From Sulfurimonas crateris (GTDB taxonomy: Bacteria; Campylobacterota; Campylobacteria; Campylobacterales; Sulfurimonadaceae), in contig NZ_SZPX01000005.1 of NCBI RefSeq assembly GCF_005217605.1, forward strand, positions 124,001 through 188,000: a stretch of 64,000 nt of DNA. The letters run 5' to 3'. The notes beneath the pieces are model-generated. The model worked only from the letters and a program-made list of their open reading frames with translations. It was not told where the DNA came from and ran no database searches. The position numbers and the translations under genes are program-made. Below are positions 4,039 through 51,648 of the stretch, in pieces. Every line of letters starts with the position of its first letter. Within the stretch, counting starts at the first letter, position 1.

Positions 4039-4451
4039 AAACCTCTAACGCTTACGAAGATAACGAAATATCAGAGATAAACATGACCCCTTTTGTGGAT
4101 ATAGTTCTTGTAGTTTTGGTTATCTTTATGGCGACTGCAACCTTTGTCGCACAGGGCAAAATAGCCATATCTCTTCCGAAAGCCACGAAACACAAAGAGG
4201 TGTCAAAACCCGAAAAACCGATAATAATTACTATCGACAAAGAGGGAACTCTTTATTTTAACGACAAAAAGATTGAGATAAAAAACCTAAGTACCGCTTT
4301 GCAGGGAAGTAGTGATATTGCTTCAAAAGCCGGTGTTGTTCTTCGTAGCGACGCAAAAACAGAGTTTGAACATGTAGTAAAAGTCATCGATACATGTAAG
4401 CAAAACAATATCTCAAAGTTCTCAATCCAAACACAAGAGCAAAACAGATGA
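4035..4451 (+). CDS. exbD: ExbD energiser subunit of the TonB complex
   Basis: A 138-aa single-span inner-membrane protein with a periplasmic domain. The essential membrane aspartate is present (D22 in MTPFVDIVLVVLVIFM), and the periplasmic part has the ExbD/TolR features PIIITIDKEGTLYFND and LRSDAKTEFEHVVKVID. It overlaps exbB at an ATGA and tonB at another, so the three subunits are translationally coupled. It converts proton flow through ExbB into TonB motion. Placement between a Mo/W-type importer and two receptor genes suggests a dedicated set. Confidence 0.94.
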   Translation: MKTSNAYEDNEISEINMTPFVDIVLVVLVIFMATATFVAQGKIAISLPKATKHKEVSKPEKPIIITIDKEGTLYFNDKKIEIKNLSTALQGSSDIASKAGVVLRSDAKTEFEHVVKVIDTCKQNNISKFSIQTQEQNR

Positions 4452-5206
4452 ACACTTTTTGGCAAAGAGCTCTTGTCTCCATAGCTTCAACTACGATTTT
4501 GCACGCTTCGATATTTTACTCTCTTAGCAGCGTAAATCAGCCGCAAATCGTTACTCAAAAAGCCGTGGAAATATCACTGATAGACAACGCAGAGATTGAA
4601 AAAAAAGAAGAGCCAAAACCAAAAAAAGAGCCAAAACCGACAATCAAGCCAAAACCGATTGAAAAAGAAGAACCAAAAATCAAGCCAAAACCGACAATCA
4701 AGCCAAAACCGATTGTAAAAAAAGAACCAAAGATAGAGCCAAAACCTGTTGTCAAAGAAATACCGATAATTGAACAAGAGCCTATCGTTGAAAAAAAACC
4801 TCTTATCTATAAAGAGGCTCCAAAAATTGTTCAAAACGAGATTAACACAGAGATAAAAGAGACTCTTGTATCGCAAGAAACAAGAGAAAAACAAGAGATG
4901 AAGTCTAAAGTAAGTGAAGATAAATTGGCACTATATCTATCTAAAGTCAGAGCAAAAATCCAAGAAAATCTAAGATATCCGCCTCTTGCAAAACGACTAA
5001 AGATTGAGGGGGAGAGTGTTGTTGGATTTGAAATCTTACCTGATGGAAGCGTAAGGGAATCATCCATTGGCATAAAAAACTCAAGCGGACACAAAAGTTT
5101 GGACAGACAAGCCATAAGCACCATTTTAAGTGTATCTCCGTTTGATGCTCCTCCACAAAACAACATGTCGATAGTTTTACCTGTTGCATTTAAATTAAAT
5201 CTATAA
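4448..5206 (+). CDS. tonB: TonB energy-transducing protein
   Basis: A 252-aa TonB with an N-terminal membrane anchor (about residues 8-27), a long Lys-Pro/Glu-Pro periplasmic spacer (about 45-125) built from repeated KPKPTIKPKPI-like units, and a C-terminal TonB domain (about 165-252) with LRYPPLAKRLKIEGESVVGF and PDGSVRESSI. It couples ExbBD to TonB-dependent receptors. It begins inside the exbD stop. The receptor genes at 7157 and 10593 are its probable clients, though one TonB could also serve receptors elsewhere in the genome. Confidence 0.94.
   Translation: MNTFWQRALVSIASTTILHASIFYSLSSVNQPQIVTQKAVEISLIDNAEIEKKEEPKPKKEPKPTIKPKPIEKEEPKIKPKPTIKPKPIVKKEPKIEPKPVVKEIPIIEQEPIVEKKPLIYKEAPKIVQNEINTEIKETLVSQETREKQEMKSKVSEDKLALYLSKVRAKIQENLRYPPLAKRLKIEGESVVGFEILPDGSVRESSIGIKNSSGHKSLDRQAISTILSVSPFDAPPQNNMSIVLPVAFKLNL
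4598..4760 (+). repeat. Tandem repeats encoding the TonB proline-rich spacer
   Basis: Imperfect direct repeats built on AAGCCAAAACCGA run through this part of tonB, the longest unit recurring as caatcaagccaaaaccgat. They encode the KPKPTIKPKPI spacer. Such repeats can change copy number in frame and so alter spacer length. Confidence 0.7.
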
Positions 5207-5220
5207 AAAAAGGAAAAAAG

Positions 5221-6429
5221 ATGAGTGAATTTTTAACAAAAAACGATGAGAGCGTAAAAATAGAAAAGATTATGAAATTTAACAGATCTTTTGATGAGAT
5301 GAGCCAAGACCAAAGAGAAGCATGGCTTAAAGAGATGGGAGAGATAAATATAGAACACTTCTTTAAAGCAAATCAGAGAGTATTTGATGAAGACGGTCCG
5401 CATAAAGCAAATCCCGATAAAGCGAAATCTCAGCAAAGAAGAGATTTTTTTCTTGATGTACTTAAAAACAGAGTCAAATCCGACCCTTTAAAACTTCCAA
5501 AAGGACACCCCGTTACCAACTATCTTGATGAAAACATCGTGATTCGAGAAATCTGCACAAAAATAGAAGATATTTTTGATGTAAAAGAGTTGCAAACTTA
5601 TCAGCCGACATCAGAGCTGCTTCATGAGTTGTCAAAAATCCATATTCACTATTTACGAAAAGAGGATCAGCTTTTTCCATATCTTGAAAAACACAATTTT
5701 ACCTATCCGAGTACGGGTATGTGGAAATTTCATGATGAGATGAGAGCAAATCTCAAAACCGTAACAAAAGCGGTTGAGATAGGCACATTGGACGATGAAA
5801 CACTAGAGCTTATGAAAGAGACCGTAAAAAATATTTTTGACATGACCACAAGGGAAGAGAAGATGCTTTTGCCGACTTCCGTGAAGCTTCTTTCACAAGA
5901 AGAGTGGATCAAAATTCGCAAAGAAGAGGAAGAGTCAAAAGATGAGATAGGGTACGGATTTATAGAAAATCCGCCGATGTGGCCACCAATGAGTGACGAA
6001 GATGTACAAATCGCAACACTTGATAAACTCTTACTGCAAACGGGTTCTCTCTCGCAAGCACAACTCAACCTGTTTTTCTCTCATCTGCCTTTTGATATAA
6101 CTTTTGTAGATGAAAATGACCGCGTTCTTTTTTTCAACAAAGGCTCGGAGAGGACTTTTCCAAGAAGCCCAAGCGTCATAGGCAGAGAGGTAAAATTTTG
6201 CCATCCTCCAAAAAGCGTAGATACCGTACTTACGATACTAGAAGCATTTAAAGACGGGAGCAAAGAGAGTGCAGAGTTTTGGATTACTTTTAATGAACGA
6301 CTCATTCACATCCGCTATTTTGCGCTTAGAGACAAAGAGAAAAAGTACAAAGGCGTAGTCGAGATAACACAAGATATCACGGATATAAAGAAAATCGAAG
6401 GTGAGAGACGACTTTTAGACTGGGCATAA
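5221..6429 (+). CDS. DUF438 / haemerythrin-like / PAS domain protein
   Basis: A 402-aa soluble protein. The N-terminal ~70 residues look like DUF438; residues about 95-220 hold a haemerythrin-like HHE region with KGHPVTNYLDEN, HYLRKEDQLFPYLEKH, WKFHDEMR and REEKMLLPTS, whose His and Glu residues could bind a di-iron centre; residues about 280-400 form a PAS-like domain (FDITFVDENDRVLFFNKGSERTF, then GVVEITQDITDIKKIEGE). Proteins of this plan are associated with nitric oxide or redox sensing. It has AGGAAA upstream and sits 14 bp after tonB. Its job in a metal-uptake cluster is unclear; it could sense redox state or oxygen. Confidence 0.82.
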   Translation: MSEFLTKNDESVKIEKIMKFNRSFDEMSQDQREAWLKEMGEINIEHFFKANQRVFDEDGPHKANPDKAKSQQRRDFFLDVLKNRVKSDPLKLPKGHPVTNYLDENIVIREICTKIEDIFDVKELQTYQPTSELLHELSKIHIHYLRKEDQLFPYLEKHNFTYPSTGMWKFHDEMRANLKTVTKAVEIGTLDDETLELMKETVKNIFDMTTREEKMLLPTSVKLLSQEEWIKIRKEEEESKDEIGYGFIENPPMWPPMSDEDVQIATLDKLLLQTGSLSQAQLNLFFSHLPFDITFVDENDRVLFFNKGSERTFPRSPSVIGREVKFCHPPKSVDTVLTILEAFKDGSKESAEFWITFNERLIHIRYFALRDKEKKYKGVVEITQDITDIKKIEGERRLLDWA

Positions 6430-6448
6430 AGGTCTATTTTTATATAGC

Positions 6449-6470
6449 GTTATGTGAACAATGATATAAC
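6449..6470. promoter_or_regulatory. ModE-like inverted repeat upstream of the methyltransferase
   Basis: GTTATGT, an 8-nt spacer, then ATATAAC: a near-perfect inverted repeat about 20 bp ahead of the methyltransferase start, in the only sizeable gap of the downstream half of the cluster. Its half-sites resemble the GTTATAT/ATATAAC elements reported for ModE repressor sites; this is from memory and not verified. It would place the methyltransferase, both receptors and the Mop gene under Mo/W control. Confidence 0.4.
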
Positions 6471-6490
6471 AAAGTAAAGGAGATAAAGCG

Positions 6491-7141
6491 ATGGGTAAAG
6501 ATAAAAACAGCCAAACCAAAGAGCATAAAGGCGGATCAAACCCTCAAAGTTTTGACCGAATCGTGCGTGAAGTGTTTGCACCGATCTACCCTGTTATTGC
6601 ACAGCAAATAGTGGCAAAAACACTCACAACATCAGGCAGATGTCTAGATGCAGGATGTGGCACGGGGGCATTGGGGCGTGCGATAGCCGCTATTACGGAT
6701 CTACATGTAACTTTTTTTGATCAATCAAGCCAGATGCTAGATTTAGCAAAAAAGTATGCAGACGAAGAAAATATTTTACACAAAAGCGATTTTTTAGAGG
6801 GGGATATACACAGCGTAGAGATGGAGAATGACTCCGTAGATATAGTTATCAGCCGTGGCTCATCACCGTTTTGGGATGATTGGCATAGAGCGTACGGCGA
6901 AATATTGAGGGTTTTAAAAGTCGGGGGACATGCTTATATAGGCGGCGGATTTGGCACAAAAGAGCTAAAGGAGCAGATAACCGCCCACATGAGCAAAGAT
7001 AAACCCGACTGGAGAGACTCATTCAAAGATAGAATCAAAGCAGAGCGAGAAGCACTGCCTCAGATAATGGAAAAACTTAATCCAACATCACACACCATAA
7101 TCGACGATGAGAGCGGCTGGTGGGTTTTAATAACAAAATAA
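6491..7141 (+). CDS. Class I SAM-dependent methyltransferase
   Basis: A 216-aa Rossmann-fold methyltransferase (Methyltransf_11/25 type). Motif I CLDAGCGTGALG lies near residue 56, followed by the acidic loop FFDQSSQMLDLA, the SVDIVISRGSSPFWDDW region and VLKVGGHAYIGGG. The substrate cannot be read. A GGAG ribosome site precedes the ATG, and the gene is followed 15 bp later by the first TonB receptor. A second methyltransferase ends the same cluster (13509). Both could act on a metallophore or regulator, or be incidental. Confidence 0.85.
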   Translation: MGKDKNSQTKEHKGGSNPQSFDRIVREVFAPIYPVIAQQIVAKTLTTSGRCLDAGCGTGALGRAIAAITDLHVTFFDQSSQMLDLAKKYADEENILHKSDFLEGDIHSVEMENDSVDIVISRGSSPFWDDWHRAYGEILRVLKVGGHAYIGGGFGTKELKEQITAHMSKDKPDWRDSFKDRIKAEREALPQIMEKLNPTSHTIIDDESGWWVLITK

Positions 7142-7156
7142 ACAAGGAAAGATAAG

Positions 7157-9160
7157 ATGAATAAAAGAATAGTTTTAAGTTTGGCTTTAATAGCAAGTAT
7201 GAACATGTATGCTTTTGCAAACGAGAGTTACGGTTTGCAAAAAGTAGAGGTTACGCAAGAAGGCGGCCTTAAAGCACCTATGCAAAATGAAGCATTCAGT
7301 GCTCCGGAGACTTCAAAGCTTACGATAGACAAGCTTACCGAGGAAGAGATAGAGATAGCAAACCCTAAAAATGTATTTGAAGCCATCAATATGACCGCTG
7401 GTGCGAATATTCAGTTTCAAGGGCGAAAAAACTCGGCTATCATAACCTTTAGAGGCAGCCCCAACATCTATAGTGCCGCGGCATTTGGCGTAATACTAGA
7501 CGGCGCTCTTCTAGCCCCTATGTCATCGCTAAGAATGATGGAATCTTTAAGTATGGATGTTATAGAGTCTATTGAGGTCATCAGGGATGCGAGTGCGCTT
7601 ACCCTTGGACCAATTGCAGGTTTTGGAACTCCAAACGGCTCCCCGACTTTGGGGTATATCGTCATAAAGACAAAGCTTCCAAAAAGAGACGGCGGTTCGG
7701 CAAAATTTGCTTATGAGAGCTTCAACACAAAAATCGCAGATATAAGCTATGGAGGCATAAACGACAAAATATTTTATCTGGCAAGTTTAAGTGGTTATTT
7801 TACCGATGGAAGAGACGATTTCAATACCGCTGAGGAGAGAGGCAGCGTATTTGTCAGAAGCGGTTATATAGATGAGGGCTTTAGTGCAACAATAAGTGCA
7901 TACTATTCCAATGCGGATAAAGAGACACAAAAAGCGACCGACCCGCTTAGCTCGGTAACGGCTTCAGAGTGGAAATACAAGCCTGTAGAAAATGAGTTTA
8001 TTTCTGCCATACTTGAGAAAGATTTTAACCAAAACAATAAAACAACCTTACAGCTTTCGCATACAAAAGCGACATGGAGTCAAGATCTTGATAGAACGAA
8101 CCCATCTACTGCAACTGCCCCTAATATCTACTTTACAGGAACGCAGAGTACGGATTCTATAGATTTAAGGCATGCCATGAAGATAGCGGATACCACGCTA
8201 AAGTTTGGTGCACAGGCAATGTTTTATGATGCTCCAGACGGAGAGCTATTTTATGAAGGGTATGAGAGAAAAGAGCAAATCTACGGCGCTTTTATACATG
8301 CTTCACACTCGTTTGACAATAACAGACTCACCATTGACGAGTCTTTTAGAGTTGATAGAAAACATATAGATTCTTCTGTAGAGAGGTATGATCCAAACTC
8401 TGTATTGGCAGGAAATGTCACAAAACTAAACAATGCAGAACTCTCAATTATAGAAGATCAATGGGCAAAATCATCTATAGCTTTATCCCTAGGGGCGATT
8501 TATAAGTTCGACGACAACTTAGAGGGTAGTGCAAGATTTGCGTATTTAACTTCTGGGACTCCCGACGACGCTTTGAGTGCCGACGGCTCAGATATGCAAG
8601 ACGAAGAAAGCTATAGATACGAAGTGGGACTCAAAAAAAGAATAAACAAATATTTCAGTCCCACTTTAAATCTATTTTTATACGACAATAAAAATATCAA
8701 ATCGCCTATTTATTTGGGAACAAATGCTGATCCGTACATAGTTTTTAATCAAATAGACCAAAAAAGATACGGCGGTGAACTAGGTTTTGAGGGTACGGAT
8801 AAAGAACTTTATTACTCTTTTAGCTACGCCTATGCCACGGCAGATGTAAAAGACAACGAGATACCAAAACACACCGTATCGGCAATGTTACAGAAGAAAA
8901 TCGGAGACTATGCTCTAAACTTTTCCGGTAAATACATAAGCACTTATGAGTCAAACTTTTTTACGATTGACAAAGAGTACCATGATGTAGGGGATTTTAT
9001 CTCTATTAATCTCTCTTTAGATTACAACCATCAACTGCTTGGAAACGATGCCAAGTTTAGCGTATATAGCAGAAATCTTACGGATGACAACTATGTAACT
9101 ATATTTGGCTTTGAAGATCAAGGAAGAGTGATAGGCGCATCTTATGCATTTAAGTTTTAA
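7157..9160 (+). CDS. TonB-dependent outer-membrane receptor 1
   Basis: A 667-aa receptor. A signal peptide (about residues 1-21) is followed by a possible TonB box (KVEVT near residue 29), a plug domain at about 50-175 (NPKNVFEAINMTAGANI, then VILDGALLAP and DVIESIEVIRD) and a beta-barrel ending in the aromatic terminal strand ASYAFKF. Family: OMR/FepA-like siderophore receptors. The ligand is unknown. Neighbours (Mo/W-type importer, Mop protein, own TonB set) suggest an oxyanion complex or metallophore. The monooxygenase gene overlaps its 3' end by 17 bp. Confidence 0.9.
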   Translation: MNKRIVLSLALIASMNMYAFANESYGLQKVEVTQEGGLKAPMQNEAFSAPETSKLTIDKLTEEEIEIANPKNVFEAINMTAGANIQFQGRKNSAIITFRGSPNIYSAAAFGVILDGALLAPMSSLRMMESLSMDVIESIEVIRDASALTLGPIAGFGTPNGSPTLGYIVIKTKLPKRDGGSAKFAYESFNTKIADISYGGINDKIFYLASLSGYFTDGRDDFNTAEERGSVFVRSGYIDEGFSATISAYYSNADKETQKATDPLSSVTASEWKYKPVENEFISAILEKDFNQNNKTTLQLSHTKATWSQDLDRTNPSTATAPNIYFTGTQSTDSIDLRHAMKIADTTLKFGAQAMFYDAPDGELFYEGYERKEQIYGAFIHASHSFDNNRLTIDESFRVDRKHIDSSVERYDPNSVLAGNVTKLNNAELSIIEDQWAKSSIALSLGAIYKFDDNLEGSARFAYLTSGTPDDALSADGSDMQDEESYRYEVGLKKRINKYFSPTLNLFLYDNKNIKSPIYLGTNADPYIVFNQIDQKRYGGELGFEGTDKELYYSFSYAYATADVKDNEIPKHTVSAMLQKKIGDYALNFSGKYISTYESNFFTIDKEYHDVGDFISINLSLDYNHQLLGNDAKFSVYSRNLTDDNYVTIFGFEDQGRVIGASYAFKF

Positions 9161-45943: not shown

Positions 45944-46019
45944 GGCCAATTAGCTCAGTCGGTAGAGCAAGTGACTGAAAATCACTGTGTCCTTGGTTCG
46001 ATTCCGAGATTGGCCACCA
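45944..46019 (+). tRNA. tRNA-Phe (GAA), first copy
   Basis: A 76-nt cloverleaf with encoded CCA. Acceptor stem GGCCAAT/ATTGGCC, D arm AGCTCAGTCGGTAGAGC, anticodon stem AGTGA/TCACT around loop CTGAAAA with anticodon GAA, and TTCGATTC in the T arm. A TATAAT lies at 45921. Its last 48 bases plus one flanking base are perfectly repeated at 51600, so it is the attachment gene of the downstream island. Confidence 0.97.
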
Positions 46020-46020
46020 C
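45972..46020 (+). repeat. attL: left copy of the 49-bp direct repeat
   Basis: The 3' part of tRNA-Phe from the anticodon arm through CCA plus one base. It is identical to 51600-51648. This is the signature of site-specific integration by a tyrosine recombinase into a tRNA 3' end. Confidence 0.88.
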
Positions 46021-46090
46021 TTTAGAACTCCTAAAATAAGAGGTTTCAAAGACTTTTAAAAAGTTCTTTAAGTTTCAGTAAAAAAGTTTT

Positions 46091-46111
46091 TTTACTACAA
46101 TTTTACTACAG
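46091..46111 (+). repeat. Two TTTTACTACA repeats near the left island end
   Basis: TTTTACTACA at 46091 and 46102, an 11-bp period, about 70 bp inside attL. The same 10-mer recurs three times near the right end, so these may be arm-type integrase sites. Confidence 0.7.
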
Positions 46112-46155
46112 GTTGCTTTTTAGCATGAAAAACAGGTAAAATTCAAGCACTTAAT

Positions 46156-46231
46156 GGCTAATTAGCTCAGTCGGTAGAGCAGTTGACTGAAAATCAACGT
46201 GTCCTTGGTTCGATTCCGAGATTAGCCACCA
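46156..46231 (+). tRNA. tRNA-Phe (GAA), second copy, inside the island
   Basis: A 76-nt complete cloverleaf with CCA. Acceptor GGCTAAT/ATTAGCC and anticodon stem GTTGA/TCAAC differ from copy one but remain paired (compensated changes), so it looks functional. The 3' flank begins ACCTCTTT, as does the flank after the tRNA fragment at 51648. Confidence 0.96.
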
Positions 46232-46449
46232 CCTCTTTATAAAAAATCCAAATATTTCATTTTCTTATCTTATCTTGTTTGCAATCCTGTTTTATAAATA
46301 TTTACCGCAATTTATCCGTTAACTTACAACTCGTTTTCTATACAAATCAGAATAATTTTGCAGCCTGAGTTTTAGAGACATCATTATTTCAAAAATAGAA
46401 ATTTAGATAAAATTACTAAATTATGTAACAAAAAAGAGCTGGCGTAAAA

Positions 46450-47268
46450 ATGAAGATAGATATACTTAGCGATTTGCACTTTGACTATTACTTTAAACAA
46501 TTTAACAACTCCGATAGAGATGTAAAAAAGGTTTATGACAACTATTTTTTACATAATGATAGAGTTGTAGGCGACGTATTAGTTGTTGCCGGAGATTTAG
46601 GACATCACAATAATCAAAATCTAATTCTCTTAAAAATGATAAAAAAGCTTTATAAGTATAAAGCCATTATCTGCGTTTTGGGCAATCATGATTATTATCT
46701 AGACGGACTAATTGCTAAAGATGATTATGAAGATTCATTCGAAAGGGCTAGAGAGCTCATTGATTTAATCAACTCAGAAGATGGTCTGTATTGTCTTGAT
46801 GGCAATATAATCGAGATAGAGGATGTAAAGTTTGGTGGCGCTATGGGTTGGTACAGCGACGCTTATTTGAAGTATAAGTATCCCTTTGGGAATTTTCCTT
46901 TAAAATCAAATAATGAGATGTGGAAAAATTGTATGCCTGATTTTTCAATGACAGAGGGTTTAGTGAACTTTGATGATCTGTATTATCTTGAAATTCCAAA
47001 AATAGAGATGGTTTACAAAGAGTGCGATGTGATGATCACGCATATAAACCCCTCATTTTTAAACGAACATCTATCACAAGAGTTTTCAGGACAGCAAACA
47101 AATACTTTTTTCTGTTTTAACGGTCATAAGTTCTTGAGGGGAACAACAGCAAAGCATTGGATTTTTGGACACACTCATGACTCTTTTTCTTATGAGTTTG
47201 CAGGTATAAAATGTCATGTAAACGCTTTTAGCGATAGAACTGCAACAATAAAGAGCATTGAGGTTTAA
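46450..47268 (+). CDS. Calcineurin-like metallophosphoesterase, copy A
   Basis: A 272-aa cytoplasmic phosphoesterase with a full metal site: ILSDLHFD, VVAGDLGHH, VLGNHDYY, MITHINPS and IFGHTHD. It is clearly paralogous to the protein at 48594 along its whole length. The closest general families act on nucleotides, nucleic acids or phosphoproteins; the substrate here cannot be read. It is 3 bp upstream of a PPP-type phosphatase. Island cargo; codon use is A/T-rich like the rest of the element. Confidence 0.88.
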   Translation: MKIDILSDLHFDYYFKQFNNSDRDVKKVYDNYFLHNDRVVGDVLVVAGDLGHHNNQNLILLKMIKKLYKYKAIICVLGNHDYYLDGLIAKDDYEDSFERARELIDLINSEDGLYCLDGNIIEIEDVKFGGAMGWYSDAYLKYKYPFGNFPLKSNNEMWKNCMPDFSMTEGLVNFDDLYYLEIPKIEMVYKECDVMITHINPSFLNEHLSQEFSGQQTNTFFCFNGHKFLRGTTAKHWIFGHTHDSFSYEFAGIKCHVNAFSDRTATIKSIEV

Positions 47269-47271
47269 AAT

Positions 47272-47934
47272 ATGCAAAAAGGTATTTGGGTTATCGGTGA
47301 TGTTCATGGTGAATATGACAAGTTAATACTACTGCTGAGTAAACTTCCTAAAGATGCCGTTGTTTGTTTTACGGGCGACCTAATTGACAGAGGTGAAGAC
47401 TCTGCTAAAGTTGTTGAGCTTATAATAAATAGTGGTTATTTTTGTGTGCTTGGCAACCACGAATTGATGATGATAAAGTCAGATGAAAGTAAGCAAGATA
47501 AAGAGTATTGGTTTCATAACGGTGGTTTAGAAACATTAAGTTCCTATGCTGAATTTGGTGATGAAGTTTTTAAAGCTCATATTGAATATTTCAAAACCCT
47601 TCCTTATTTCCTGTATTATGAGATAGAGGGGCATATTCCCTTGGTCGTGTCTCACTCTTATATTCATCATATATGGGTAAATCAAGAGCATATATACTCT
47701 GAAGATGATGCAGAGGATATCCTCTGGCGGCACATGAACAAAAGTGAATATTTTGATGAGGAAAAGGAAGCTAAAAACGGTATCTTTAATATTTTTGGGC
47801 ATATGCCTGTTTATGACGCTGTTATAACTAACACGTACGCAATGATTGATACGGGTGCTGTTTATGAGAACAACAAATATTTAGGTACATTAAGCGCTAT
47901 TCACTATCCCTCTTTGAAGGTTATATCAACATAG
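47272..47934 (+). CDS. PPP-family Ser/Thr phosphatase (lambda phosphatase-like)
   Basis: A 220-aa phosphatase with the PPP motifs GDVHGEYDK, GDLIDRGEDS, LGNHELMM, SHSYIHH and FGHMPVYDA, then IDTGAVYENNKYLGTLSAI as in phage lambda and bacterial PrpA/ApaH-like enzymes. It may remove phosphate from proteins or cleave dinucleoside polyphosphates. It follows copy A by 3 bp, so they are cotranscribed. Phage-type enzymes of this class are common on mobile elements. Confidence 0.9.
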   Translation: MQKGIWVIGDVHGEYDKLILLLSKLPKDAVVCFTGDLIDRGEDSAKVVELIINSGYFCVLGNHELMMIKSDESKQDKEYWFHNGGLETLSSYAEFGDEVFKAHIEYFKTLPYFLYYEIEGHIPLVVSHSYIHHIWVNQEHIYSEDDAEDILWRHMNKSEYFDEEKEAKNGIFNIFGHMPVYDAVITNTYAMIDTGAVYENNKYLGTLSAIHYPSLKVIST

Positions 47935-48250
47935 CAATTTTTTTTGACATTATATCTCTGTTATTTGATAAAATTTTATCACAAGTGCGCGTACTGCCCG
48001 TTAAATTGGGACAATATTCAAGAAATTGAACACAAGCGTGCTTAATTCTAGTGCGGCGGACATTGATTATCTGTCCTTAAAACAACTCTCTTTCGCTATC
48101 TCTTCTTCGTTTGTGAATTTTCATTTGTCGCATGTCCGCTTTATTGATAAAAGTTAAATATACTTATCCTGATGAGCTCAAAGAAAACTGATGTTTACAA
48201 GAACTGCTCCAAGGCGAGAAAGAAAACAGATTTTAGACAGGAGGTATTTT
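47935..48250. other. 316-bp gap between phosphatase and the 102-aa gene
   Basis: AT-rich with a GGACA/TGTCC hairpin near 48057-48083. Short peptides such as KYTYPDELKEN can be read near 48150 but have no start or length to support a gene. It probably holds the promoter of the next genes and decayed sequence. Confidence 0.4.
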
Positions 48251-48559
48251 ATGAAAAAGAAAAAAACTCAAATTAAAATTGACAAGAGCATGTTTGAATT
48301 TGATCTTTTTTGGAGCATTAAAGATGGTTCGTTAGTGGACATCGACACATTAATAAGTGTTTACTCGCAATACTCAAATACAAAAAATATGAAAGCTCTT
48401 GTGGCACTGTTTTCAAAAGAGAAGGTTTTATCTGTTATAGAATCTCAAGATATCTTAAGCGATGAACACAAAATAGCTCATAAGATTAATATAGGCATTA
48501 TTAATGGCACCGCAACTGAAAATTTTACTTCAGAAAATCTGGCACCGTTCACTGTTTAA
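48251..48559 (+). CDS. Hypothetical 102-aa island protein
   Basis: Not recognised. I prefer the ATG at 48251, which has AGGAGG 6 nt upstream; a 20-codon longer reading from 48191 has no ribosome site. Lysine-rich start (MKKKKTQIKIDKS), then alpha-helical segments (YSNTKNMKALVALFSKEKVLSVIESQ). No membrane segment. It lies 34 bp ahead of phosphoesterase copy B and could be its partner. Confidence 0.7.
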   Translation: MKKKKTQIKIDKSMFEFDLFWSIKDGSLVDIDTLISVYSQYSNTKNMKALVALFSKEKVLSVIESQDILSDEHKIAHKINIGIINGTATENFTSENLAPFTV

Positions 48560-48593
48560 TTTAAAAACATGAAAAGCATAGAGATCTAATACA

Positions 48594-49403
48594 ATGAAAA
48601 TAGACATAATTAGCGATACACACTTTGATTTGCACCTTGATAAAGATAGTTTTGAAAACACAGAAGAGTTCTTGCAAAAAGTTTTTACAAAAACAGGTAG
48701 CAAAATCCTTATAATTGCCGGCGACTTAGGACACTTTAACTCTCAAAATATCGCAATGTTAAGATTGATAAAAGAGCTGTATGAGTATAAATATATCATT
48801 TGCGTTCTAGGAAACCACGACTATTATCTTATCGATGAGACTCAAGAGAAACGGTACGAAAGAGACTCCTTTAGGCGTGCAGAAGAGATGAGAGAGCTTA
48901 TAAACGCTGAGGATGGAATGTATTGTCTTGATGGAGATGTTATTGAGATAGACGGTATCAGATTTGGAGGTTGCAGCGCCTGGTATGATGGCAGTTATTT
49001 TCACAGAACATCCTCTTCATACGGACGAAATGTACTTACATTTTGGAAGCAAACCATGAATGATTCGAGAATGATTTTTGGTATCGAGGATTTTTATGAT
49101 ATGTTTAAGATCCAAAAAAAGAAGCTAGATGCGATCTATCAAAATTGCGATATTATCATAACTCATGTCAATCCGTCGATAGACGACAAAGATACACCAC
49201 CCAGCAAAAGAGACGACAAAATGAACGCATTTTACTCTTTTTGCGGCGATGAATGGCTTGATAATACAACCGCTAAGTATTGGATATATGGGCATAATCA
49301 CGTTAATTATGAATACAAAAGAGATGGGGTCAGCGTAATTTGTAACGCGTTGGGCTATACTGAACAATTAAAAGATTTTAAGATAAGAACAGTTGAAATT
49401 TAG
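48594..49403 (+). CDS. Calcineurin-like metallophosphoesterase, copy B
   Basis: A 269-aa paralogue of the 46450 protein with all metal motifs: IISDTHFD, IIAGDLGHFNSQN, VLGNHDYYL, IITHVNPS and IYGHNHV. The block EDGMYCLDGDVIEIDGIRFGG matches EDGLYCLDGNIIEIEDVKFGG in copy A. Two diverged copies on one small element suggest different partners or substrates. A good terminator follows at 49518. Confidence 0.87.
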   Translation: MKIDIISDTHFDLHLDKDSFENTEEFLQKVFTKTGSKILIIAGDLGHFNSQNIAMLRLIKELYEYKYIICVLGNHDYYLIDETQEKRYERDSFRRAEEMRELINAEDGMYCLDGDVIEIDGIRFGGCSAWYDGSYFHRTSSSYGRNVLTFWKQTMNDSRMIFGIEDFYDMFKIQKKKLDAIYQNCDIIITHVNPSIDDKDTPPSKRDDKMNAFYSFCGDEWLDNTTAKYWIYGHNHVNYEYKRDGVSVICNALGYTEQLKDFKIRTVEI

Positions 49404-49517
49404 TAATACTCTCACTATTGATGTCTTCTTGAAATTCGCTATGATTTTAACATCTACAAAAAAGTCAGAGTAATTGTAATAGAGTATCGTTTCCTATGCC
49501 AGCTTTTTGTTGGGCCA

Positions 49518-49559
49518 AGAGACTGAGTGGGTTATATACCAATATTCCAGTCTCTTTTT
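49518..49559 (+). terminator. Rho-independent terminator after copy B
   Basis: AGAGACTG and CAGTCTCT form an 8-bp stem with a long loop, followed by TTTTT. It lies between convergent genes and could act for both. Confidence 0.7.
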
Positions 49560-49571
49560 AAATAGTTAACT

Positions 49572-50216
49572 TCAAGCATCTGCACACTCCTCACATCTTG
49601 TTTTAATCCATCCCTTGCTTTTTTGTGGTACAGCGGGTTTTCCACAATTTTCACAAATATTTTCACTCTCTTCTTCTGCTTTTTCTATGAGAGCGTCGAT
49701 TTCTCGTCCCGTATCGCCGTGGGCATAAAACCTAAGACTGCCATACTTTTCTTTGACCTGCACGACCCGAATATTAAGCTCTGGATCACTGTCAAGTATC
49801 TTTTGGATGTCTTCCGACAATTTTGCAATAAGAGGAAACCATCCTCTACCGACTTCAAATCCAAAAGATAACAGCGACTTCATCGGGTCGTATGGTGGGG
49901 TTCCATATATTTGAGGATACTTTTTGATGATATCAATCGTTCTATATCCAAAAAGCTCAAGGCTGGCTTCATCTGCCTTGTCACTTAAATCTACAATGCA
50001 GTCAATATGTTCCAGCTCATCAACATCTGTGATGAGGCCTTGTTTTTGTTTTTCATCGAGATATTCTGCCAATCTTAGCGGATTTATAAATTCTTGTATC
50101 TCTTGAGCTATTTTTTCGCTTGAAGATATGCAATAAGTTCCAAAATACTTAATAAGCTCTTGGATCTCTTCTGAACCTTGATCTGTTTTTGCATTGATAA
50201 TTTTTGTGATTTTCAT
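49572..50216 (-). CDS. Hypothetical protein with C-terminal zinc-ribbon (phage-type)
   Basis: A 214-aa protein. Residues about 120-214 (FEVGRGWFPLIAKLSEDIQ, VVQVKEKYGSLRFYAHGD, ICENCGKPAVPQKSKGWIKTRCEECAD) resemble a domain often seen in phage and plasmid proteins, with a CxxC...CxxC zinc site. The N-terminal half is unknown and rich in acidic residues. TAAGGAA-type site precedes the ATG. Island cargo, opposite in strand to the phosphoesterases. Confidence 0.75.
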   Translation of the reverse strand: MKITKIINAKTDQGSEEIQELIKYFGTYCISSSEKIAQEIQEFINPLRLAEYLDEKQKQGLITDVDELEHIDCIVDLSDKADEASLELFGYRTIDIIKKYPQIYGTPPYDPMKSLLSFGFEVGRGWFPLIAKLSEDIQKILDSDPELNIRVVQVKEKYGSLRFYAHGDTGREIDALIEKAEEESENICENCGKPAVPQKSKGWIKTRCEECADA

Positions 50217-50369
50217 TTTAAATTCCTTTTTTGTCTGTATGAACTTCGTGAAGTTTTGTCAAAAACTCTGATATGATAGAGATATACATTTTGATATACT
50301 AGTCTCTCTTCGAAATATCTCAATCTATGTCTCAATTCTATGCTGTTTTCATTAATCGACTATATCAGT

Positions 50370-50549
50370 TTATTCTAAATGTCGTTGTAAGAAATACTCT
50401 TTAAATATTATTTCTTGTAGGTATTCTGGTCTTCTTTTCGAACTAAATGAGGTCTTGCAGTCATTACAAAAATATCTCTTTATTCCTCTTCTTGAGCCTT
50501 TGGAAATAACATTTTTTGACTTGCAATTTATGCATATTTTAGAGCTTTT
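50370..50549 (-). pseudogene. Transposase N-terminal zinc-ribbon fragment
   Basis: On the - strand a 59-codon frame reads KICINCKSKNVISKGSRRG, then IKRYFCNDCKTSFSSKRR. This CxxC...CxxC plus basic pattern opens IS1/IS1595/ISL3-type transposases. There is no start codon and the catalytic part is missing, so it is a scrap of an insertion sequence. Confidence 0.7.
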
Positions 50550-50610
50550 TTACAGCCATTTGTAAATAAACCTTTGTTTATTCCTACTATAGCATAGTTT
50601 GAGAGGTGTT

Positions 50611-50844
50611 TTAAGCACCCATATTTACTATTAAGTCACCTGTCATAAGATGATGTTTCGTTTGGATCAGTCTATCGTAAGCGTCTTTGATAGTAAAATT
50701 TTATTGTTTGGTTTTTACGCCTACTTTCTTTTTAATAGGTTTGCCGTTCTCGTCTCTGTAATTGATATAAAAAGCAGTATTACCGTTTTTAAGTTCGTTT
50801 ATCCAAACGCCCTCATATCTTCCGCCTGCTGGTTTTAATGCCAT
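50611..50844 (-). pseudogene. Truncated tyrosine integrase (N-terminal domain)
   Basis: From the ATG at 50844: MALKPAGGRYEGVWINELK, then NGNTAFYINYRDENGKPIKKK, the arm-binding start of a phage-type tyrosine recombinase. A TAA ends it after 47 codons at 50701; the same frame continues with NFTIKDAYDRLIQTKHHL, as expected of an integrase, before a second stop at 50611. The catalytic domain is gone, replaced by the transposase scrap. It is probably the former integrase of this tRNA-Phe island. Confidence 0.8.
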
Positions 50845-50887
50845 TTATATACCTTTTAATATTATTGTTTTTTTGATATAATGCTTA

Positions 50888-50997
50888 CTAAGAAACAAAA
50901 GAGGTGGAAATACGGGCATCCACGAGCCTTGCATCCTAGTTTGGGGCGTTACCGGTGCAGGATAAATGAGGGGAGTTGTCCTCCCTCCTTTTGTTTT
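50888..50997 (+). ncRNA. Candidate structured small RNA divergent from the integrase remnant
   Basis: A 110-nt stretch, much more G+C-rich than the island around it. An extended -10 TGATATAAT lies at 50874-50882. The ends pair: AAACAAAAG (50893-50901) with CTTTTGTTT (50988-50996), 9 bp. Inside are GTGGA/TCCAC and ATCCT/AGGAT stems and a GAGGGG/CCCTC hairpin before the T-rich end, which fits a terminator. No reading frame explains it. I do not recognise an RNA family. Confidence 0.5.
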
Positions 50998-51397
50998 ATA
51001 TAAAATCTTCAAAAATCTTCCTCTTCTTACTATTTAAAAATTGAATATGATTGTCACACTGCTTTAACAGTTTTCTTTTGTCAGTTTTAAAAAAAGTCCC
51101 TATATAGTTAAAATGGTTATTTGTAGATATTGAATATAAAAAGATATCATTGCTTACTATTGAAACAAAGTTATAAATAGAATCATCATGTTTATATGAG
51201 CATACACCTATCGTGCTATCTAAGATTATTTGAAAATTATTGTCATAAAGATAAAAAATGACCTGCTCATGTTTTTGTTCTATTTTTTTTAGCTTTGCTT
51301 TTGTGATATGAAGTTCTTTAGAGTCAAATACATTTCTGAGTTTATGCAAAATAAGATTTGTTAACATTGCTAAAAGTATTCTGTTTTTACTGCCCAA
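50996..51397 (-). CDS. Hypothetical 133-aa island protein
   Basis: Not recognised. Lysine-rich alpha/beta protein (KAKLKKIEQKHEQVIFYLYDNNFQIILD, IYNFVSIVSNDIFLYSISTNNHFNYIG). The start is uncertain: TTG at 51397 or ATG at 51367. An upstream ATG near 51426 would join this frame if one A were removed from an AAAA run. TGTAGTAAAA repeats and TATAAT lie just upstream on this strand. Confidence 0.6.
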   Translation of the reverse strand: MGSKNRILLAMLTNLILHKLRNVFDSKELHITKAKLKKIEQKHEQVIFYLYDNNFQIILDSTIGVCSYKHDDSIYNFVSIVSNDIFLYSISTNNHFNYIGTFFKTDKRKLLKQCDNHIQFLNSKKRKIFEDFI

Positions 51398-51438
51398 ATC
51401 AAAACTGCCTATATGTTTAAGTTTTCATATTATACATT

Positions 51439-51472
51439 TTTTACTACATTTTTTACTACAGTTTTTACTACA
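51439..51472 (+). repeat. Three TTTTACTACA repeats near the right island end
   Basis: TTTTACTACA at 51439, 51451 and 51463, an exact 12-bp period. The same 10-mer is repeated near the left end. On the - strand the repeats abut a TATAAT ahead of the gene ending at 50996, so they could also be an operator. Confidence 0.75.
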
Positions 51473-51599
51473 ACTTTTAAAAAAGAATGGATTATTATAA
51501 AAGAATATAAAAGGGGGAGAGGCTTTTTAAAGCCCGTAAAATAGAGGGTTTTAGGAGAGTTTATCATATTTTAATAAACTATAAAAATACCCGTTTTAC

Positions 51600-51648
51600 T
51601 GACTGAAAATCACTGTGTCCTTGGTTCGATTCCGAGATTGGCCACCAC
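51600..51648 (+). repeat. attR: tRNA-Phe 3' fragment
   Basis: A 49-bp perfect copy of 45972-46020 with no tRNA 5' half: upstream bases do not pair with its anticodon arm. It marks the right end of the island and is followed by a T-run that may be the original tRNA terminator. Confidence 0.88.

Follow-up and report, generated by a model that had tools for sequence, protein, structure and literature searches.

The locus at positions 45972-51648 of a 64,000-nucleotide stretch of Sulfurimonas crateris DNA (contig NZ_SZPX01000005.1, positions 124,001 to 188,000 of the forward strand; hereafter the window) raises the question of what kind of element has inserted into its tRNA-Phe gene, and what a small RNA and an adjoining protein gene at the element's right end do there. 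An original prediction had described a small integrated element bounded by a 49-bp perfect repeat, with a ruined integrase and a content that matched no known phage or plasmid type. We find that positions 46021-51648 are almost certainly a decayed composite tRNA-Phe island, in which the ends of one integrative element (E1) enclose the phosphatase cargo of another (E2). Three parts of the island are still intact: the phosphatase block, one complete tRNA-Phe gene and a two-gene RNA-protein cassette beside the right attachment site, attR.

Boundaries of the island

The direct repeat was recovered as an exact match (49/49) between 45972-46020 and 51600-51648 that cannot be lengthened by even one base in either direction. 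No exact repeat in the window is longer, and apart from it 30-mers recur only in a short pair at 4629/4683. ARAGORN called two complete tRNA-Phe genes, 45944-46019 and 46156-46231, and made no such call at 51600; the right copy of the repeat is therefore without a tRNA 5' half, and the exact match and the ARAGORN result agree with what had been predicted. The first of these genes, tRNA-Phe 1 (GAA, + strand), is the target gene rebuilt at the left end, with the attL core at 45972-46020, and the right copy (+ strand) is attR, a displaced tRNA-Phe 3' half with a chromosomal histidine kinase gene directly after it.

An empty right junction was found in Sulfurimonas sp. Kmv11 (G146), where the histidine kinase gene that lies next to attR in the window comes immediately after a complete tRNA-Phe gene. 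Only the right junction is seen in this genome because its contig ends at the tRNA, so the empty site expected in relatives was found on its right side and its left side lies beyond the contig end. This junction, together with arm-type sites inside both ends and an intact relative with the same ends in G083 (both described below), strongly supports the prediction of an integrated element bounded by tRNA-Phe att sites, which entered the tRNA gene at the anticodon loop.

Integrase family and larger relative

Tandem copies of a short motif, TTTACTACA, were located by motif search just inside each end on the + strand. Two copies 11 bp apart lie about 70 bp inside attL (46091-46110), in the same place as in G083, and three copies 12 bp apart lie about 127 bp before attR (51440-51472). 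Elsewhere on this strand of the window the motif does not occur, and the - strand holds a single copy at 4373. Across 135 Sulfurimonas genomes the tandem arm motif was found 33 times, in 25 genomes, and a reversed-pattern control gave 0 occurrences. Most of these tandems have, about 140 bp downstream, the 3' half of a tRNA that begins close to the anticodon loop; the halves are mostly of tRNA-Leu, with tRNA-Phe in the window, G083 and G023, and the arm-linked tRNAs of G105 and G117 have the anticodon-loop sequence TTCAAAA, read as Leu-CAA. All nine E1-family integrases that we paired, each with an intact N-terminus, carry the motif upstream, 0.1-3.7 kb away. From the motif's position at both ends, the tRNA 3' halves and the nine integrases, the tandems very probably serve a single integrase family as its arm-type sites. 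By this sequence evidence, the island's ends belong to the E1 tyrosine-integrase family, which is widespread in Sulfurimonas and targets tRNA anticodon loops. A search for E1 integrases in plasmids returned one distant match only, at 28% identity. The tandems beside tRNA 3' halves provide a simple DNA signature for finding the E1 element family in Sulfurimonas.

The integrase gene itself survives as the N-terminal scrap with a stop codon that had been predicted. It comprises about 70 codons of the 5' end of the gene (about 50636-50845, - strand), with an in-frame stop at codon 48 and 88% DNA identity to the intact 368-aa integrase gene of G083. A functional integrase was thus not found in the island (about 70 codons, one stop), and with so little of the gene left the island would be unable to excise by itself. 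At 50380-50560 (- strand), at the break point of the integrase gene, lies a scrap with a zinc ribbon (CxxC...CxxC) that resembles a transposase N-terminus and for which Pfam gave no clear family; it may mark a deletion event.

The complete genome G083 holds an element with the same left end (tRNA, arm sites and second tRNA), integrase start, right arm and att core, which together enclose about 18.5 kb. Its genes include the 368-aa integrase, a TrwC relaxase with a helicase domain (E 4e-51), a TrwB-type coupling protein (E 2e-19), a Lin1244-type protein, an AlpA-like small protein recognised by eye, and an Abi_2-like protein just below the Pfam cut-off. An Abi-like gene occupies the slot that matches the position of the RNA-protein cassette in the window. 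Neither relaxase nor coupling protein is present among the open reading frames (ORFs) of the window.

Origin of the cargo and of the second tRNA-Phe gene

The cargo block (46277-50227) has its counterpart in another relative: in G146 a different tyrosine integrase, int2, is immediately followed by DNA that is 92% identical to the block. As the E1 ends and the E2 cargo are at home in different relatives, 5.6 kb is the size of a remnant and not of a unit. The picture of a small island matching no known type does not hold up in the form predicted, since the E1 ends are spread through Sulfurimonas, a TrwC relaxase and a TrwB-like coupling protein are encoded in a larger version, and the cargo comes from an int2 island. 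Occurrence of the same genes in relatives without the repeat at both ends, which would have spoken against the bounded element as predicted, was observed for the cargo (in G146, behind int2) and was not observed for the element ends.

Inside the bounded segment lies the second complete tRNA-Phe gene (tRNA-Phe 2, 46156-46231, + strand), and the element therefore carries a whole tRNA-Phe gene. Just upstream of it is TTGCTT-18-TAAAAT, a promoter read by eye on which a consensus scan made no call. tRNA-Phe 2 differs from tRNA-Phe 1 (92% identity over 78 bp) by paired changes in two stems, the acceptor and the anticodon stem, and is identical at 76/76 positions to the tRNA of the G083 element, where the adjoining arm is only about 83-89% identical. 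This identity beside a diverged arm, and the paired stem changes, indicate that tRNA-Phe 2 is part of the mobile unit, and the gene looks to be under selection. The simplest idea for its origin is that it was captured from an adjacent tRNA-Phe locus where island E2 was already present, which is favoured because an int2 remnant directly follows tRNA-Phe 2 in G083. A supposed histidine-kinase remnant after tRNA-Phe 2 was dropped, as the same sequence occurs downstream of int2 in G146. In a separate locus (L032, G036:C30:6155-9413), three complete tRNA-Phe genes occur with an insert of about 3 kb between the second and the third; the insert contains zinc-ribbon membrane-protein genes and a HigBA/RelE-like gene pair.

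Two other accounts of the island's structure can be set against this one. The clean att repeats at both ends could suggest a single small integrative unit, self-contained and of its own type; this is hardly credible when the ends occur together with conjugation genes in G083 and the cargo accompanies another integrase in G146. Alternatively, tRNA-Phe 2 might be the native second copy of a tandem pair, with the element beginning downstream of it. Most relatives do have two tandem tRNA-Phe genes, 20-50 bp apart, yet in the window the spacer is 136 bp and arm sites lie between the two genes. Native copies are also mostly 97-100% alike, whereas the acceptor and anticodon stems of tRNA-Phe 2 differ from those of tRNA-Phe 1, and the gene is identical to the G083 copy beside an arm that is 89% identical there. 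We consider a native second copy quite improbable. That a whole tRNA gene lies inside the element is a point against our island model. With tRNA-Phe 2 as part of the composite island, the locus is an example of a mobile element that carries a whole tRNA gene of the same kind as its integration target.

The skipping-rope RNA and its protein partner

The small RNA that had been noticed in the island is skipping-rope (RF02924; 50894-50995, + strand), called by the Rfam covariance model at 43.3 bits against a gathering score of 36.7; its connection with the overlapping gene was beyond the reach of the prediction. Its extended -10 element, TGATATAAT (50874-50882, + strand), is present as TGnTAnAAT in 7/7 aligned loci. 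The RNA has four conserved helices, and Rfam draws it with a pseudoknot (PMC7779021). In the alignment 98.9% of pair cells are standard and 12 of the 28 pairs are changed on both sides; 0 of 500 shuffles reached as high a covariation, and sliding the partner destroys the signal. The G-U pairs in the RNA indicate that the annotated strand is the functional one.

On the - strand, tail to tail with this RNA, is the gene for a 133-aa protein (50996-51397, TTG start) whose stop codon falls at the 3' closing stem of the RNA. Intact homologs of the protein, 133-138 aa long, were found at 11 loci, eight in Sulfurimonas (the window included) and three in other families of the order. Skipping-rope lies tail to tail with the protein gene at all 11, and at two decayed loci (G142 and G075), so that the arrangement is convergent in 13/13; in all 13 the TAA stop of the protein gene is located at the 3' strand of the RNA closing stem. 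The protein is under purifying selection, with pN/pS of 0.16-0.28 (pN 0.08-0.19, pS 0.40-0.73), its N-terminus MGSKNRI is invariant, and every intact copy starts with TTG or GTG. Taken together, we hold with high confidence that the skipping-rope RNA and the 133-aa protein form one functional unit. An orphan Rfam family thereby gains a fixed protein partner, which gives a directly testable hypothesis. No function or partner gene for skipping-rope was found in the literature covered, which did not extend to the original 2017 description that may mention one.

The Rfam model calls eight of the 13 cassette RNAs, five above the cut-off (window, G065, G029, G072 and G176) and three below it (G142, G106 and G017). 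A model built from the short RNAs only recovers those of G211 (7e-26), G176 (7e-18), G075 (6e-5) and G025 (1e-3). The long RNAs of G022 and G177 were located visually, with their similarity to those of G025 and G176 as a guide. Divergent long skipping-rope-like RNAs of about 150 nt at L147, L148, L151 and L163 are missed by the Rfam model and could extend it. Weak RF02924 matches in G136 and G032 were taken as false, being inside a coding gene.

The protein gene stands without the RNA in two cases, a truncated 64-codon gene in G119, whose contig ends soon after, and a decayed copy in G077, which occupies the same slot between integrase and right arm. The RNA stands without a protein homolog nearby at L139 (G176:C15:34626-34734), where a custom model gave 111 bits; an RNA-protein pair lies on the same contig at 148165. 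The cassette itself is placed beside the E1 right arm in the window and G065; in G029 its neighbour is an unrelated integrase, and in G072 no integrase is near it. No protein homologs were found in plasmids, phages or IMG/VR, and a search of IMG/VR for RNA-like patterns returned 16 loci with 0 skipping-rope among them.

Predicted fold of the 133-aa protein

Two confident AlphaFold2 models (pLDDT 87 and 94) place helices before a four-stranded antiparallel sheet. Foldseek comparison with viral models returned six significant matches, MuF C-terminal-domain proteins among them (best 1.1e-6, TM 0.73; MuF-C 5.8e-4). In the predicted structures two invariant residues stand out, a His at the very end of a helix and a Thr in strand 4 of the sheet. 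PBECR RNases, which occur on phages and conjugative elements, have a His in a helix and a Ser or Thr in strand 4 (Iyer and co-workers, PMC5512222), and the invariant pair matches this active site. A sequence search of the PDB with the protein profile gave no match.

Proposed mechanism and alternatives

The predicted fold, the viral MuF-C matches and the His/Thr pair are the grounds on which we propose a BECR-type RNase that is held in check by the overlapping RNA. The 133-aa protein would be a BECR-type endoribonuclease, skipping-rope would bind and restrain it, and loss of the element, or an invader that upsets the RNA, would set the nuclease free. The RNase activity, its neutralisation by the RNA, and a role in addiction or defence are inferred. 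For an RNA-antitoxin mechanism as such, we judge the case to fall just short of even. Slightly more tentative is the specific form in which skipping-rope would be the RNA antitoxin of an unrecognised Campylobacterota toxin-antitoxin (TA) class, consisting of a single pseudoknotted RNA, placed tail to tail and overlapping the stop codon of a PBECR-fold RNase, on tRNA-targeting elements. The explanation of island and cassette taken whole, including an RNA-restrained nuclease, we regard as probable. If true, the RNA-antitoxin reading would widen RNA antitoxin systems to repeat-free RNAs and convergent genes.

Several observations weigh against this proposal. No tandem repeats were found over the skipping-rope RNA, and the RNA and the protein gene are convergent, both of which are unlike known RNA antitoxins. 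Neither AlphaFold2 model has a significant structure match in the PDB; HigB, RelE and a CDI toxin, which are among the leading matches of model 1, stand at E > 0.09 (best HigB, 0.09) and do not appear among the leaders of model 2. At the sequence level no Pfam, PADLOC or PHROG family supports the fold. The RNA occurs without the protein at one site only (L139 in G176), so the pattern of an antitoxin that can live alone rests on a single case.

The pair could also function outside a TA system, with the RNA serving a BECR-fold RNA-binding protein as cofactor, guide or substrate, or with the protein processing the RNA into a small regulatory RNA. The linkage, the covariation and the invariant N-terminus would be the same in this case, and the PBECR domain of Mu MuF-C is predicted to be inactive and possibly RNA-binding (PMC5512222). 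Since, however, both residues expected in an active PBECR enzyme, the His and the Thr, are invariant, and a toxin would fit the element context and the weak TTG/GTG starts, we consider such a role rather unlikely. It is improbable that the RNA is a mere bidirectional terminator, or that it acts only in cis as an antisense 3' part of the protein gene, as might be supposed from the stop codon at its closing stem and from terminator-like hairpins called at 50968-50987. A terminator would not need three of the four conserved helices, the extended -10 before the RNA is conserved, the G-U pairs of the RNA strand would be A-C mismatches on the opposite strand, and the RNA also occurs alone, at L139.

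Genes of the cargo block

The three phosphatases that had been predicted are all PF00149 Metallophos proteins (E 4e-14 to 2.4e-18). They are a metallophosphoesterase of 272 aa (46450-47268), a PP2A/NinI-like phosphatase of 220 aa matching phrog_246 (47272-47934), and a metallophosphoesterase of 269 aa matching phrog_1649 (48594-49403), all on the + strand; the last is present in 7 of 120 Sulfurimonas genomes. Both metallophosphoesterases match the PADLOC candidate family PDC-S10, with E 3e-10 to 3e-12 over part of the profile only. The unknown genes that had been reported were likewise found as ORFs of no known family. Between the phosphatases lies a 122-aa ORF (48191-48559, + strand) with a weak AbiEii profile match (E 0.0098), and a 214-aa protein of no known family (49572-50216, - strand) has relatives in the islands of G146 and G023.

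Beyond the phosphatase block, G146 carries lipoprotein genes and ZorA/ZorB-like genes, and this locus with int2 and the Zor-like genes is a defence island. Its ZorA- and ZorB-like genes (ZorB E 1e-66) are at 6172-7426 of G146:C83 (L138/L076), with phospholipase-D-like and AAA ATPase genes further on. G023 has an E1 right end, and the 214-aa gene stands behind its native tRNA pair; G020 has the three phosphatases in a changed order behind a tRNA cluster. Metallophosphoesterases of this kind have Gabija and DndC as neighbours in G105; in G069, and by visual reading in G137, the neighbour is an AbiEii-type gene. From this company with Gabija, DndC and AbiEii-type genes, the cargo probably belongs to the defence-island gene pool.

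In G069 (L060) and G137 (L061) the metallophosphoesterase is directly beside an AbiEii-type nucleotidyltransferase gene (PF08843, E 2.5e-16 in G069), and it is possible that PDC-S10 metallophosphoesterase and AbiEii-type gene form a two-gene defence or TA unit. In G105 the locus L059 (C1:541000-557000) is an E1-family integrase island with DndC, GajA and GajB (PADLOC E 4e-126, 1e-206 and 3e-229), an SMC/DndD-like gene, a metallophosphoesterase and an AlpA-like regulator, and its right att fragment is a tRNA 3' half with the loop TTCAAAA.

Comparison with known systems

The window island resembles the tRNA-targeting islands of the Islander class (PMC4383910) in having a rebuilt tRNA at one end, a displaced 3' fragment at the other and a tyrosine integrase. 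It departs from them in that the integrase is decayed, the island is a composite of two, and a complete extra tRNA-Phe gene lies inside it. Among mobilisable and conjugative elements with TrwC (MobF), the nearest is that of G083, with which the window shares the left arm, tRNA-Phe 2, the integrase start, the right arm and the att core; unlike the G083 element it has no relaxase, no coupling protein and little of the integrase, and its cargo is different.

The 133-aa protein is similar to PBECR/MuF-C RNase domains (PMC5512222) in its predicted fold, its invariant His at the helix and its Thr in the fourth strand. In contrast to these domains it is a stand-alone protein, is paired with an RNA, and has no detectable sequence similarity to library profiles. 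Type III TA systems are defined by an antitoxin RNA of tandem repeats that lies upstream of the toxin in one operon, and by an RNase toxin that is inhibited by RNA binding (PMC8860590). Given the absence of repeats and the different gene order, we do not file the cassette under type III: its genes are tail to tail rather than in one operon, its RNA is without repeats, and its protein has a predicted BECR-like fold and no ToxN match. What it has in common with ToxIN, CptIN and TenpIN (PMC8860590) is a structured small RNA beside a small predicted RNase on mobile DNA.

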